From: an uncultured Pseudomonadota bacterium
GTDB taxonomy: Bacteria; Pseudomonadota; Alphaproteobacteria; RF32; CAG-239
Direction of reading: 5' to 3'
DNA: 61,819 bases
Assembly: GCA_949300375.1 (NCBI GenBank)
Contig: CASGEB010000009.1
Coordinates: forward strand, 1 to 61,819
The translations under genes and the position numbers were made by a program. Positions 8,507 to 61,819 of this stretch are shown piece after piece (positions within the stretch are counted from its first letter, which is position 1; each line of letters begins with the position of its first letter). The notes beneath the pieces are model-generated. The model saw nothing but the letters and a program-made list of their open reading frames with translations, was not told where the DNA came from and did no database searches.

Positions 8507-8567
8507 GCCAAAATCCTCCCCCTGTTTTTCAATAATGCTTGACACACAAGCTTTGCTGTGTTATAGT
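8507..8567 (+). promoter_or_regulatory. Shared Cys-rich-gene promoter module, copy 1
   Basis: GCCAAAAT (8507-8514), TTCAATA, 4 bp, TTGACA (8539-8544), a 17-bp spacer and TATAGT (8562-8567). The order and total length (61 bp) match copies at 25421-25481 (minus), 41180-41240 and 61708-61768. The promoter core is a good sigma-70 match; the upstream GCCAAAAT could be an activator or repressor site. It drives the Cys-rich genes A-C after a leader of about 440 nt. Confidence 0.85.
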
Positions 8568-8643
8568 AATCTTGATGTTGTTCCGAGGAGTTGTTTCGGA
8601 GCGGCATCCACATCTCCTGCTGTCTCCGGATGTTTTGTTTTAA

Positions 8644-8731
8644 TGGTCATCCTCGGGCGGCTGGTTTTAATGGTCATCCCCGGGCGGCTGGTTACTTTAC
8701 GGTCATCCCCGGGCTTGACCCGGGGATCCAC
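8644..8731. repeat. Intergenic dyad repeat units in the leader of Cys-rich gene A
   Basis: Three units beginning GGTCATCC(C/T)CGGGC start at 8644, 8672 and 8701, spaced about 28 bp. The last ends in a hairpin, CCCCGGG-CTTGA-CCCGGGG. Related units occur at 8829-8976, in and after the second island, and at the right edge of the window. Confidence 0.75.
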
Positions 8732-8828
8732 AGGCAACGGCAGGGGTTGTGAATAACATAACACCCGTCATTGCCGGACTTGCCCTGCTCGGCAGAGTTG
8801 GTGAATGGCAAAGGACTTTAAAAGCATT

Positions 8829-8976
8829 GTCATCCTCGGGGCGGCTTGTTTTAATTGTCATCCCCGGGCTGCGACCCGGGGATCCAAATGAACAATAAAG
8901 CCTTATGATTGACCTGGATTCTCGGATCACACCCTCAGGGTGACGCCAAGTGGATTGCCGGGTCAAGCCCGGCAAT
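8829..8976. repeat. Further dyad repeats in the leader of Cys-rich gene A
   Basis: A GTCATCCTCGGGG unit (8829) is followed by GTCATCCCCGGG with hairpin arms CCCCGGG/CCCGGGG (about 8861-8881). A CACCCT/AGGGTG dyad follows (about 8929-8942). Last is the perfect hairpin ATTGCCGGG-TCAAG-CCCGGCAAT (8954-8976). The gene A ribosome binding site begins 25 bp after the final hairpin. Confidence 0.75.
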
Positions 8977-9015
8977 GACATAAGAAAAGAATTTTTATAA
9001 GGGAGGAGACCGAAA

Positions 9016-10537: not shown

Positions 10538-11059
10538 ATGAAAAAAGACTTATTATCAGCTGCTATCGCTATATTAACCGTCACAACGGCTTCTAATGTC
10601 CGTGCAGCTTGTACTTCTACTCCGGACTGCAAATCTATGGGATACATTTACACTGTTGAAGAATGTTCCGGAAGTTATATAGCCTGCCCTTTTGATACCT
10701 CTAAAGTCTTTTGCTTTGACCCTTGTCTGTATACACTAAAGGCAGATAATTGCCCGGCATCACAAGGAAAAAGACCGGGTACACAATCTTGTATCAGAGG
10801 AGGAACAGTTTACTACGCAAATTGTGAAAATCTTTGTGATACTTTTGAAACCTATATTAATGGAACCTGTGTCCCAACAGTCTGCTGTGACAACACCAGT
10901 ACGTCAGAATATATTGATTCCGGCCTCTCCCTTTGTCGTAACACCTATAATTATCCGGACTGTACTTACCTTTTTGCCAGCTGCCGCAATGCTGGAGGAA
11001 CTGTTAAATACAATCACTGTATGCACCCTGGAATGGCCTCATTTAATTGTGAAAAATAA
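10538..11059 (+). CDS. Cys-rich secreted protein B (alpha + beta-like + gamma-like)
   Basis: The start at 10538 is chosen because GGGAGAAAG precedes it and the product begins MKKDLLSAAIAILTV, a signal peptide with a cleavage-type NVRAAC end; an in-frame ATG further upstream lies inside gene A. The precursor has 173 residues with 18 cysteines, all after the signal. Residues about 23-55 match the alpha module (PDCKSMGYIYT, ACPFDTSKVFC). The middle is a reduced beta module (CIRGGTVYYANC), and the C-terminal YNYPDC....SC part resembles a degenerate gamma module. It is 25 bp after gene A and 25 bp before gene C. Function unknown. Confidence 0.85.
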   Translation: MKKDLLSAAIAILTVTTASNVRAACTSTPDCKSMGYIYTVEECSGSYIACPFDTSKVFCFDPCLYTLKADNCPASQGKRPGTQSCIRGGTVYYANCENLCDTFETYINGTCVPTVCCDNTSTSEYIDSGLSLCRNTYNYPDCTYLFASCRNAGGTVKYNHCMHPGMASFNCEK

Positions 11060-11084: not shown

Positions 11085-11831
11085 ATGAAAAAAGGATTAC
11101 TATTAGGCTCTGTCGGAATATTAACCATTCTCGGAAACACAAAAATCCAAGCCGGATGCATTCCGACTAACGATTGTTCTTCTTTAGGATACAAATACAC
11201 TAAAGATGAATGTTCTGGGCAAGGGATTGCCTGCCCCTTCGACGCTGCCAAATATAATTGCGAAAACCCGTGTACATACAAGGTGAGCCTTTCCGACTGT
11301 TCATCCAAATGTTTAAATAATGGTACAAAATCATGCACAAGAAACGGAACAACCTACTACGAATCTTGTGGCGTTTCCAAATGTTCCAGCGGATATGAAT
11401 GTCAAAACGGAAAATGCGTAACAGCATGTACCTATACATATTCAGAATATATGTGCAGCCAGGAATGCAAATCGCCGGCCGGACGTTCTTGTACAAGAAA
11501 TGGTATAACGTTCTATGAAAGTTGCGGAAATTACAAATGCCCAAGCGGAAAAAAATGCTACGAGGGCAGTTGCTACACCCCCGTTCCGGTCGGCGAATAC
11601 TGCTGCGGATATGAAAACCAATGCGGATACAGCGGGGGAACAAGCAGTTCTTTCGATAGCAGATGTTACAGCATATACGGACAAAGTTGTTATCAAAAAT
11701 GCAGATCCATGGGATACCCTGATTGCACAGACTGGATACCAAGCTGCTATGCAACGGGAAATTCTCCCCAGAGAAAAGGATGCAGTTCTGACGGAAATGC
11801 AACAAACTATGCTATAAGCTGGTATTGTTAA
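11085..11831 (+). CDS. Cys-rich secreted protein C (alpha + beta + beta + gamma)
   Basis: The start at 11085 follows AAGGGAATAA and gives a signal peptide (MKKGLLLGSVGILTILGNTKIQA). The 248-residue precursor shows the modules most clearly. Alpha (about 23-55) has 5 Cys (NDCSSLGYKYT, CPFDAAKYNC). Two beta modules (about 56-107 and 108-157) have 8 Cys each and both contain SCTRNG and ESCG. Gamma (about 163-248) has 10 Cys (YCCGY..QCGYSGGTSSS, GYPDCTD). The mature part therefore has 31 Cys. It is last of the A-B-C run; no strong terminator is visible in the 43 bp before the convergent priA end. Function unknown. Confidence 0.87.
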   Translation: MKKGLLLGSVGILTILGNTKIQAGCIPTNDCSSLGYKYTKDECSGQGIACPFDAAKYNCENPCTYKVSLSDCSSKCLNNGTKSCTRNGTTYYESCGVSKCSSGYECQNGKCVTACTYTYSEYMCSQECKSPAGRSCTRNGITFYESCGNYKCPSGKKCYEGSCYTPVPVGEYCCGYENQCGYSGGTSSSFDSRCYSIYGQSCYQKCRSMGYPDCTDWIPSCYATGNSPQRKGCSSDGNATNYAISWYC

Positions 11832-24786: not shown

Positions 24787-25386
24787 TTACTGACATACAT
24801 AATATGCATTGCCAAAATAACCATAGTAACTATCTCCTTCACAAAGCTGGAAAACAGGATTGCGGCCGGAAGCACGGCAGCTTGCATGCATATCGCTGCA
24901 ATCCGGATAACCGCGGTATCTGCATTGTTCATAACAGCTCCGGCCATAGTAGCTTTGACAATAACTGTCATTGGAATTTGAAGTTCCGCCATTATACCCG
25001 CATTCATAAACATATCCGCAACACCAGCCGCTTGCTGAAACAGAAGTAAAACACGTTCCGTTATAACAGCTTTGCCCGCTTGAGCATTTGGAAGAACCGC
25101 AGGAAGCGTAATAAGTTACGCCATTTCTGACGCAGGAGGAAGAGCCTGGGTTTTGGCAGTTAGCGGCGCAGGCCTCGGCGGTGTAGGTGTAATCGCAGGT
25201 CTGCGGGTCGAAACAAAAATATTTTGTTGTGTCAAACGGACATTTAACCCCGTCGTTCGGGCATTCATCGGCGGTATATTTATAACCCATTGCCTCACAG
25301 TCCGGGGTCTGGGTGCAGGCCGCTAAGACATAACCGGATGCAAGAGCGGTACAGCACAAGGCGCTCCAAAAAATATATTGTTTCAT
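24787..25386 (-). CDS. Cys-rich secreted protein D (alpha + beta + gamma)
   Basis: The start at 25386 is preferred: it follows GGGAGAGG and gives a signal peptide (MKQYIFWSALCCTALASGYVLA), while the longer open frame begins upstream of the promoter -10. The 199-residue precursor has alpha (about 23-58, 5 Cys: PDCEAMGYKYT, CPFDTTKYFC), beta (about 60-110, 8 Cys: SCVRNGVTYYASCG) and gamma (about 118-199, 10 Cys: WCCGYVYECGYNGGTS, GRSCYEQC, GYPDCSDMHASCRASG). Gamma is very close to those of E and F. It is a single gene with its own copy of the promoter module and a leader of only about 28 nt. Function unknown. Confidence 0.88.
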   Translation of the reverse strand: MKQYIFWSALCCTALASGYVLAACTQTPDCEAMGYKYTADECPNDGVKCPFDTTKYFCFDPQTCDYTYTAEACAANCQNPGSSSCVRNGVTYYASCGSSKCSSGQSCYNGTCFTSVSASGWCCGYVYECGYNGGTSNSNDSYCQSYYGRSCYEQCRYRGYPDCSDMHASCRASGRNPVFQLCEGDSYYGYFGNAYYVCQ

Positions 25387-25420: not shown

Positions 25421-25481
25421 ACTATACCACACCTCAAACGAATAGTCAATATATAATGAAAAGTATGACGGGGATTTTGGC
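25421..25481 (-). promoter_or_regulatory. Shared Cys-rich-gene promoter module, copy 4 (gene D)
   Basis: On the minus strand: GCCAAAAT (25481-25474), TTCATTA, 4 bp, TTGACT (25449-25444), a 17-bp spacer and TATAGT (25426-25421). The element spans 61 bp, as in the other three copies. Between the GCCAAAAT and TTCATTA boxes it is almost identical to the copy at 61708 (CCCCGTYAYACTT). Confidence 0.85.
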
Positions 25482-41179: not shown

Positions 41180-41240
41180 GCCAAAATACCACTCCAACTT
41201 TTCATTAATCATTGACACTGGCGTTTTGTTGTGGTATAGT
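41180..41240 (+). promoter_or_regulatory. Shared Cys-rich-gene promoter module, copy 2 (genes E and F)
   Basis: GCCAAAAT (41180-41187), TTCATTA (41201-41207), 4 bp, TTGACA (41212-41217), a 17-bp spacer and TATAGT (41235-41240). The spacing equals that of the other copies. The leader to gene E is about 270 nt. Confidence 0.85.
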
Positions 41241-41517
41241 AGTTTTTAATAATGTTTCTTTTGTCTTGTCATTCTGCGTCACCCTGAGGGTGTGACCCGA
41301 GAATCCACCTGCACGGCAGGCGCGCGGCGAGTTGAATGCACTGAGCTCAAGAGACCGCGATGCTATGACGGGGTTTGGAATGACAAAAGAAGAAAAGAAT
41401 TTTTATTAACTATTCCGGGCACGATGTTGTTCGGAAAAAAGAAAAGAGCAACGCGAAAGCTTTGGCACGATGATGACAAATGATCGGGTCAAGCACGTTT
41501 GCTTGGGGAGGAGACCG
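41241..41517. other. Leader of Cys-rich gene E
   Basis: There is no gene here. It contains a dyad TCACCCT/AGGGTGTGA (41279-41295) followed by CCCGAGAATCC, the same elements seen in opposite orientation at 8926-8942. The end (GGGGAGGAGACCG) is nearly identical to that before gene A. A short in-frame upstream extension from 41470 is not needed. Confidence 0.6.
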
Positions 41518-42777
41518 ATGAGAAATTATAACACTATGCTACACATGAAACTAAACGCTGCGGTGTCGGTATTTTCTATCGCCGCTGCTTTCTCGGTCTT
41601 CCTCCCGCCCTCTAATGCCTATGGAGGAGTCTGTTTTTTGCCTGACTGTAATCTGGACGGCACCTCTTTTGATGACGTCAACTCCGATTCTTCCTGGTGT
41701 ATTGATAATGGCTACTATTTCACCTGTCCCGAAGGCACGGCTCCTGATTATTCTCAGACCTGCCCGCGTGACGAGAGCTACACCAAATGTTCCTCCGAGC
41801 AATGGTGCATTGACAACGGTTACACCAAAACCGCTCAATCCTGTTATGACCTCGGGCCGACCTGGTTCCCGCAAAACCTCTGTCCAAAAGGCTTTGACCT
41901 CTACAAATCCTGTGTCGAAGACACCGCTCAGGCCTGTGAGGACAAAGGCTATGTCAACAACTGTTCCCGTCCCGACAAGACCGAGATTTGTGAATGGGAT
42001 TCTTCTTTTGCCAAATGCTGCAACGATACCGAATCAAACGGATGTCCCGAGAACTCGAAAGTCTCAGGCTGTGAAGACGGCACGATTGTCGGACAGGACA
42101 CCTGCGGTTATGACTGTCATCAATGTTGTCAGACCTCCTGTCCGGCCGGTTATGCCTATACCGATGAAGAAACCTCCGGCGGCACGAGCGGATATATCAA
42201 AGACATGGCGAATGAAGACGATTACTGTCTGCACTGCACACGCGGCAAACTGTATAAACGGAAAGAAAACCCCTGTACCGGTTATGACCTCTGTTCGACT
42301 TATGGCGGGGTTGATAACGGGGATTATTGTTATACGGGGAATACGAAGAAATATTCGAAATGTCTGACCGAATGCCGGCCGGGATATATAGAATGGTGCG
42401 ACACGCCGGTCACCGATTGTGAGAAACTGGGCTATACGCAGACGGCGGCGGAATGTGCGAACGTGCCGGCTGTCGCCTGCCCGTTCAACGGGGATAAGTG
42501 GTATTGTAAAGATTACAGCAATGTCCCGACGAGCGGGCGCTGTTGCGGATATATTAACGATTGCGGATACAACGGAGAAACATCAAGTTCTTATGATTCT
42601 AATTGTCAAAGTTATTATGGCAGAAGTTGTTATGAACAGTGCAAGAGTTATGGATTCCCTGATTGTCCTGATATGCAGGCGAGCTGTCGAGCCTCAGGCG
42701 GTACCCCGGTCTTCGATGGTTGCAACTACGACGGCTACCCCACCAACGACTACCTCGCCTACTTCCTCTGCCAGTAG
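41518..42777 (+). CDS. Cys-rich secreted protein E (large N-terminal region + alpha + gamma)
   Basis: The start at 41518 is chosen because GGGGAGGAG precedes it, exactly as for gene A, and the first residues (MRNYNTMLHMKLNAAVSVF) are nearly those of A. The 419-residue precursor has a signal peptide to PPSNAYG and a large Cys-rich region (to about residue 300) almost identical to that of A in long stretches, including CGYDCHQCCQTSCPAGYAYT. Then come an alpha module (DCEKLGYTQTAAEC, ACPFNGDKWYC) and a gamma module (RCCGY..DCGYNGE, GRSCYEQC, CRASGGTPVF). It lacks the two beta modules of A. Its C-terminal module and stop region closely match F. Function unknown. Confidence 0.88.
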   Translation: MRNYNTMLHMKLNAAVSVFSIAAAFSVFLPPSNAYGGVCFLPDCNLDGTSFDDVNSDSSWCIDNGYYFTCPEGTAPDYSQTCPRDESYTKCSSEQWCIDNGYTKTAQSCYDLGPTWFPQNLCPKGFDLYKSCVEDTAQACEDKGYVNNCSRPDKTEICEWDSSFAKCCNDTESNGCPENSKVSGCEDGTIVGQDTCGYDCHQCCQTSCPAGYAYTDEETSGGTSGYIKDMANEDDYCLHCTRGKLYKRKENPCTGYDLCSTYGGVDNGDYCYTGNTKKYSKCLTECRPGYIEWCDTPVTDCEKLGYTQTAAECANVPAVACPFNGDKWYCKDYSNVPTSGRCCGYINDCGYNGETSSSYDSNCQSYYGRSCYEQCKSYGFPDCPDMQASCRASGGTPVFDGCNYDGYPTNDYLAYFLCQ

Positions 42778-42898
42778 TCGTCTCTGCCTGTCATTGCCGG
42801 GGGATTTCTTCTTTTGTCATTCTCGGGCTGCGACCCGAGAATCCAGATAAAAAAGAAGCCATATGATTGACCTGGATCCCCGGGTCAAGCCCGGGGAT
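42770..42898. repeat. Dyad repeats after Cys-rich gene E
   Basis: This begins with a 32-nt segment (42770-42801) identical to 43476-43507 and spanning the E stop codon. Two hairpins follow: ATTCTCGGG-CTGCGA-CCCGAGAAT (42819-42842) and ATCCCCGGG-TCAAG-CCCGGGGAT (42876-42898). The arms belong to the same family as the dyads at 8701-8976. Confidence 0.8.
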
Positions 42899-43022
42899 GA
42901 CAAATAAAAAAAAAGAGCCCGGGGATGAAGAAAGAAAAAAGAGAACCAGGGGCTGAAAAAATAAAAAGGTGCTTAGGAATGACAAATAAAAAAGTGCTTG
43001 GGATAACAGAATAGAAAACGGC
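42893..43022 (+). repeat. Degenerate purine-rich tandem repeat upstream of gene F
   Basis: About five units begin with GGGGATGA or a decayed form (at 42893, 42921, 42949, 42975 and 43000), with spacing of 28, 28, 26 and 25 bp. Each has an A-rich middle (ATAAAAA) and a GAGCCC or GTGCTT end. It is non-coding. Confidence 0.65.
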
Positions 43023-43042
43023 AATTAAAAAGGAGAAAAGTT

Positions 43043-43483
43043 ATGAGAAAAGGAATGTTGATAACCGTGGCGGGGATGGCTTTGTTAGCCGGAACTGCCG
43101 ATGTCCGGGCCGCTTGTATTCCGACGCAGGACTGCGCCAGCCTCGGCTATAAATACACCGCCGCACAATGCCCCGACGGCGCCATCGCCTGCCCCGATGA
43201 CAGCGGCTCCACCACCCCAGACCCGGCTCCTTCCGTCCCGACAAGCGGATATTGCTGCGGGTATACGACTTATTGCGGATATAGTGGAGGAACGTCAAGT
43301 TATAGTGACTCAAGCTGTCGTAGTTATTGGGGTAGAAGTTGTTATGAACAATGCAAGAGTTATGGATACCCTGATTGTACTGATATGCACGCCCGTTGTC
43401 GAGCCTCCGGCGGTACCCCGGTCTTCCAGGGTTGCACCAAGGGCTACAACACCAACTTCGTCGCCCTCTTCGCGTGCCAGTAG
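43043..43483 (+). CDS. Cys-rich secreted protein F (short alpha + gamma)
   Basis: AAGGAGAAAAG precedes the ATG. The 146-residue precursor has a signal peptide (MRKGMLITVAGMALLAGTADVRA) and 14 Cys in the mature part. These form a truncated alpha module (CIPTQDCASLGYKYTAAQC, then ACPDD without the final Cys), a Thr/Pro/Ser linker (TTPDPAPSVPTS) and a full 10-Cys gamma module (YCCGYTTYCGYSGGTSS, GRSCYEQC, GYPDCTDMHARCRASGG). It is 265 bp after gene E with no separate promoter module, so it is probably transcribed with E. Function unknown. Confidence 0.85.
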   Translation: MRKGMLITVAGMALLAGTADVRAACIPTQDCASLGYKYTAAQCPDGAIACPDDSGSTTPDPAPSVPTSGYCCGYTTYCGYSGGTSSYSDSSCRSYWGRSCYEQCKSYGYPDCTDMHARCRASGGTPVFQGCTKGYNTNFVALFACQ

Positions 43484-61707: not shown

Positions 61708-61768
61708 GCCAAAATCCCCGTTACACTTTTCATTAAGCATTGACACGGGCGTTTTGTTATGGTATAGT
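61708..61768 (+). promoter_or_regulatory. Shared Cys-rich-gene promoter module, copy 3, reading out of the window
   Basis: GCCAAAAT (61708-61715), TTCATTA, 4 bp, TTGACA (61740-61745), a 17-bp spacer and TATAGT (61763-61768). It is followed by GATGTTGTTC, also found after copy 1, and by GGTTATCCTTAGGCAGC (61797 on), a decayed form of the dyad unit seen at 8644. No coding sequence begins before the window ends. Confidence 0.85.
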
Positions 61769-61819
61769 GGTCTTTAGATGTTGTTCTTGAGGAACCGGTT
61801 ATCCTTAGGCAGCTTGTTT

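Follow-up and report, generated by a model that had tools for sequence, protein, structure and literature searches.

A 61-bp block that occurs four times in the window, the 61,819-nucleotide stretch analysed here, is best explained as a sigma-70 promoter with an upstream activating element, inherited by each member of a Cys-rich secreted-protein family whose genes would be jointly and strongly expressed; we give this reading a probability of roughly 0.6. The window is the whole of contig C9, one of the 57 contigs of a 1.64-Mb genome (G000, 98.9% complete). The first-pass annotation had listed the four copies, and their letters, coordinates and strands all proved exact when compared with the window sequence (Table 1). 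Each copy reads GCCAAAAT, 13 bp, TTCA(T/A)TA, 4 bp, TTGAC(A/T), 17 bp, TATAGT. Three copies had been placed before Cys-rich genes and the fourth described as leading out of the window, and both statements hold: the three stand at the start of transcription units that together contain six Cys-rich genes, and the contig stops 51 bp after the fourth, whose leader matches the leaders of the L-type members of the gene family (described below) elsewhere. An Rfam scan of the window gave no match.

Table 1. Coordinates of the four module copies, the boxes of copy 1 and the downstream genes in the window
Feature	Position	Strand	Basis and remarks
Module copy 1	8507..8567	+	sequence; profile match C9:8505-8573, E 2e-19
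Copy 1, box 1, GCCAAAAT	8507-8514	+	sequence
Copy 1, box 2, TTTTCA	8526-8531	+	sequence
Copy 1, -35, TTGACA	8539-8544	+	sequence
Copy 1, extended -10, TG	8559-8560	+	sequence
Copy 1, -10, TATAGT	8562-8567	+	sequence
Long leader of unit 1	8568..9015	+	sequence; dispersed palindromes, GTCATCCCCGGG type
L-type Cys-rich secreted protein, 498 aa	9016..10512	+	
Second Cys-rich gene of unit 1 (MKKDLLSAAIA...)	10538..11059	+	
Third Cys-rich gene of unit 1 (MKKGLLLGSVG...)	11085..11831	+	
S-type Cys-rich secreted protein, 199 aa	24787..25386	-	start codon 34 nt after TATAGT
Module copy 2	25421..25481	-	sequence; box 1 25474-25481, -10 25421-25426; profile E 1e-16
Module copy 3	41180..41240	+	sequence; profile E 4e-18
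L-type Cys-rich secreted protein, 419 aa	41518..42777	+	
Second Cys-rich gene of unit 3, 146 aa	43043..43483	+	
Module copy 4	61708..61768	+	sequence; profile E 8e-19; contig end 51 bp further

The module accompanies one gene family across the genome and in related species

A search of G000 with the pattern GCCAAAAT-N13-TTCANTA-N4-TTGAC-N18-TATAGT, allowing up to 3 mismatches, returned 39 matches in 1.64 Mb and none in the reversed control, and so the recurrence of the module is not a matter of chance. A sequence profile built from 38 copies found 41 places at E ~1e-11 or better, the next best scoring 5e-5. By the same pattern, three other species of the genus carry 31 (G004), 23 (G005) and 35 (G006) copies, and none was found in two complete genomes of this genus (G001 and G003) or in the other genera of the bacterial family. 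Counting was also carried out from the gene side, beginning with the N-termini of the protein family, so that copies were not chosen by their promoter: 101 of 108 readable N-termini have a profile match no more than 1.2 kb upstream (23/23, 26/26, 28/32 and 24/27 in the four genomes). Five of the seven remaining N-termini are preceded by a diverged block of the same layout, one belongs to the second gene of a unit (contig C12 of G004), and one has just 410 nt upstream before its contig ends. The scan of genome and relatives that the first-pass annotation had called for, run here as both pattern and profile, thus shows the module accompanying Cys-rich genes genome-wide and in related species.

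Within ~900 bp after the promoter the contig ends in 26 of the 38 own copies, and the genes of these copies are for that reason partly readable or unreadable. The assembly is interrupted by this highly repetitive gene family, which seems to be the cause of many of the breaks in G000, the contig end at 61769-61819 being an example.

Ten modules with readable downstream sequence and no intact family gene are the chief departure from the rule of one family. In eight of them a box, the -35 or the spacing is damaged, and damaged relics stand at the same places in G000 and G006, namely before flgI and before a DEAD-box gene. The other two are intact, both in G006, one lying 270 nt before uvrA and one before no gene, which rules out the notion that every orphan is damaged (these neighbours were named by reading translations, not by family search). 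The pattern agrees with a course in which the gene was lost and its promoter then decayed. Equal abundance of the module ahead of unrelated housekeeping genes had been named beforehand as an observation that would speak against a dedicated system, and this is not what we found, the uvrA copy of G006 being the one intact module before an intact housekeeping gene.

The many dispersed copies, few orphans and sharp upstream edge (see below) could also be those of a mobile promoter, a block that spreads by itself as a repeat element. Against this, the copies are tied to a single protein family, with one intact copy before uvrA; the upstream end alone is defined, no conserved downstream end being seen; and the damaged relics share their gene neighbourhoods between two species. 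We therefore rejected self-spreading, which we regard as highly improbable.

The downstream genes encode two related Cys-rich secreted-protein types

Readable frames downstream of the modules of G000 nearly always belong to one of two related Cys-rich families. The S-type proteins (MKQYI..., 151-199 aa) have their start codon 34 nt after TATAGT, and the L-type proteins (M(R/K)N..NTMLHMKL...GICFLPDC, the complete ones mostly 376-635 aa) follow a leader of ~150-490 nt that varies between copies and holds dispersed palindromes. Both types have an apparent signal peptide at the start and a cysteine content of ~8-13%. Palindromic repeats of the GTCATCCCCGGGCTTGACCCGGGGATCC type are scattered through the L-type units of the window, in their leaders and gaps (8568-9015, 41241-41517 and 42778-43042). 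S- and L-type proteins have C-terminal modules in common (e.g. CCGY..CGY.G.TS...CYEQCKSYG.PDC) and differ in other parts, and therefore constitute a mosaic family that recombination may have shuffled; in the window this sharing is seen in the genes at 24787-25386, 41518-42777, 11085-11831 and 43043-43483.

The Cys-rich proteins matched no entry of Pfam or NCBIfam, and comparison of a Cys-rich protein with PDB sequences, with Foldseek and with VIA-align found nothing. Its AlphaFold model has a pLDDT of 54, with moderate confidence at about residues 98-199 only. The papers that we searched held nothing on Cys-rich proteins of this group and no description of the module or the family. A genome of another genus, G013, has ~20 related Cys-rich genes (ACIQTPSCSSLGYTSS...) close behind a second Cys-rich reading frame, and a module of this type was not seen with them.

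Both upstream boxes and their spacing are conserved

Alignment across the four genomes refined the anatomy of the module. The second box, given as TTCA(T/A)TA in the first-pass annotation, is TTTTCA, the (T/A)TA behind it being weakly conserved, and C or T frequently replaces the G of GCCAAAAT. Counted upstream from the -35, box 1, (G)CCAAAAT, begins at 32 bp, TTTTCA at 13 bp and the TTCA within it at 11 bp, and a C-rich linker lies between the two boxes. The annotation had also lacked one feature, an extended -10 in which TG stands one base upstream of TATAGT (TGnTATAGT), present in 38/38 own copies and 5/5 diverged copies. All intact copies are 61 bp long, contain no simple repeat and carry TTGAC-N18-TATAGT/TATAAT, by which the promoter was assigned to the sigma-70 class. 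In many copies of G004 and G005 the -35 reads TTGACTC, so that the -35 coincides with a GANTC site, the motif methylated by CcrM in Alphaproteobacteria; this is not the case in G000.

Between genomes, identity is 99.5% in CCAAAAT, 94% in TTTTCA, 99% in TTGAC, 98% in the extended -10 and 97% in the -10, compared with 51% and 42% in the linkers and 54% in the spacer; the copies compared had been gathered by pattern search, which by construction biases these figures towards the boxes. The five diverged blocks were instead found from the gene and missed by the profile, their register being set by a position matrix and fixed independently by TTGAC and TG; here the consensus is matched at 42/55 upstream-box positions as against 33/90 linker positions (p = 3e-6). 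Among own copies, identity upstream of the block is at the chance level as far as about -20, increases over the final 20 nt before it (T-rich, with TA at the end) and then climbs abruptly to 93% inside. In G001 and G003, genes of the GICFLPDC family are preceded by a different block, GACAAATA...TTGCAA...TATGAT, which has the same 32 bp from box to -35 and an equally sharp upstream edge, and we conclude that the layout is genus-wide though its letters differ. The earlier claim that the upstream boxes are kept at fixed spacing is therefore borne out by the conservation, by the G001/G003 layout and by the diverged copies, and as part of the best explanation we consider it probable that selection keeps both boxes and their spacing while the linkers drift.

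These comparisons also bear on whether the block could be a product of descent only, in which case recent duplication or gene conversion would account for it and the upstream boxes would have no function. Members of a subfamily do have letters of the spacer and leader in common, and the family is repetitive enough to interrupt the assembly. Boxes and linkers, however, occupy the same few dozen bases and differ greatly in conservation, within genomes, between them and in the diverged set, and G001 and G003 keep the layout with other letters. The contrast between boxes and linkers already disfavours descent as the sole explanation, and we consider it very unlikely.

The core resembles a strong sigma-70 promoter

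In G000, TTGAC with a near-standard spacer and TATAGT/TATAAT occurs 49 times, and ~40 of the 49 (~80%) are modules. The near-consensus core and the invariant extended -10 suggest that the modules rank with the strongest promoters of the cell, and such a core could work without an activator. Promoters regulated by CtrA carry the box TTAA-N7-TTAA, which is absent from the alignment consensus of the module. Like the sigma-70 promoters analysed in Alphaproteobacteria, the module has a TTG-containing -35, a -10 hexamer and the usual spacing (PMC8407463); most of those promoters lack a T at -7 (PMC8407463), whereas in the module this T is invariant and is joined by the extended -10.

A proposed mechanism and its alternatives

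We propose that the 61-bp block is a strong promoter of the housekeeping (sigma-70) type, with a core consisting of the -35 TTGAC, a 17-bp spacer and the extended -10 TGnTATAGT, and with an upstream activating element consisting of the boxes (G)CCAAAAT and TTTTCA. Each member of the lineage-expanded Cys-rich family would have received its own copy by descent, and transcription would start here, about 7 nt beyond the -10 as in other sigma-70 promoters. A sequence-specific activator on the two boxes would contact RNA polymerase, and joint, high-level expression of the whole family would be the result. Box 1 and TTCA, at 32 bp and 11 bp before the -35, lie about three helical turns and one turn away, a usual place for an activator. 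We put the chances that an activator occupies both boxes at about even, ahead of direct binding by the polymerase alpha-subunit C-terminal domains, with a repressor ranked third.

Direct binding by the alpha-subunit C-terminal domains would turn CCAAAAT and TTTTCA into an UP-like element of a constitutive, very strong promoter that needs no dedicated regulator. Four consecutive A or T letters occur in each box, both boxes precede the -35, and the core, which has an extended -10, is close to consensus; in promoters of the rRNA type, A-tract sequences ahead of the -35 raise output. Compared with these UP elements and with the E. coli UP consensus, however, box 1 is placed at a greater distance upstream (about -67 to -60) and has invariant C bases, and the linker between the boxes is C-rich; the short A/T runs are present, but position and C bases are atypical. 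We regard an UP-like element as a possible but rather unlikely account.

Near-consensus extended -10 cores are often under negative control, and a protein on the upstream boxes might accordingly hold a strong core off and be released under certain conditions. Both boxes, however, are wholly upstream of the -35 with no overlap with the core, and the alignment consensus displays no operator-like element between the -35 and the start, so that we consider a repressor or silencer improbable.

The dedicated regulator and regulon put forward in the first-pass annotation fared unevenly. The association with one family and the constrained boxes speak for them, but sharing of the module is in itself no proof of a regulon, since a paralogous family inherits its promoter by descent; the "regulon" is one such family rather than a set of unrelated genes recruited to the box. 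A dedicated regulator is plausible. More tentatively, a genus-specific transcription factor may co-evolve with the boxes (GCCAAAAT...TTTTCA in one branch, GACAAATA... in another) and switch on the whole mosaic set of ~40 Cys-rich secreted proteins at once. We rejected an AraC-type regulator for G000, from which the AraC family is absent. The OmpR and LysR families do occur; genomes that have this version of the module and genomes that lack it contain comparable numbers of them, and presence or absence therefore points to no candidate among them. In three species a LysR-type gene is found a few kb or less from a family gene (G003 C8:49852, G006 C3:39194 and G004 C2:62393), which may be coincidence.

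The known system closest in kind is that of the vlhA promoters of Mycoplasma gallisepticum, one for each member of a large variable surface-protein family and each with a conserved extra cis element upstream of the core (PMC6258824). There, a GAA repeat ~40 nt ahead of the start sets activity by its length, 12 repeats being the on state (PMC6258824), and repeat length thus picks the genes that are on. In contrast, the spacing of the module is fixed and it has no repeat, from which we predict joint expression; phase variation of the vlhA type was rejected, all intact copies being 61 bp without a simple repeat.

The module provides a handle on an undescribed, expanded family of secreted proteins in uncultured Alphaproteobacteria, since the promoter alone finds the family even where assemblies break inside its genes. 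It predicts co-expression and gives a defined DNA bait for the putative regulator, and it offers a clean natural case of promoter evolution in which, within one genus, the layout stays fixed while the letters change.
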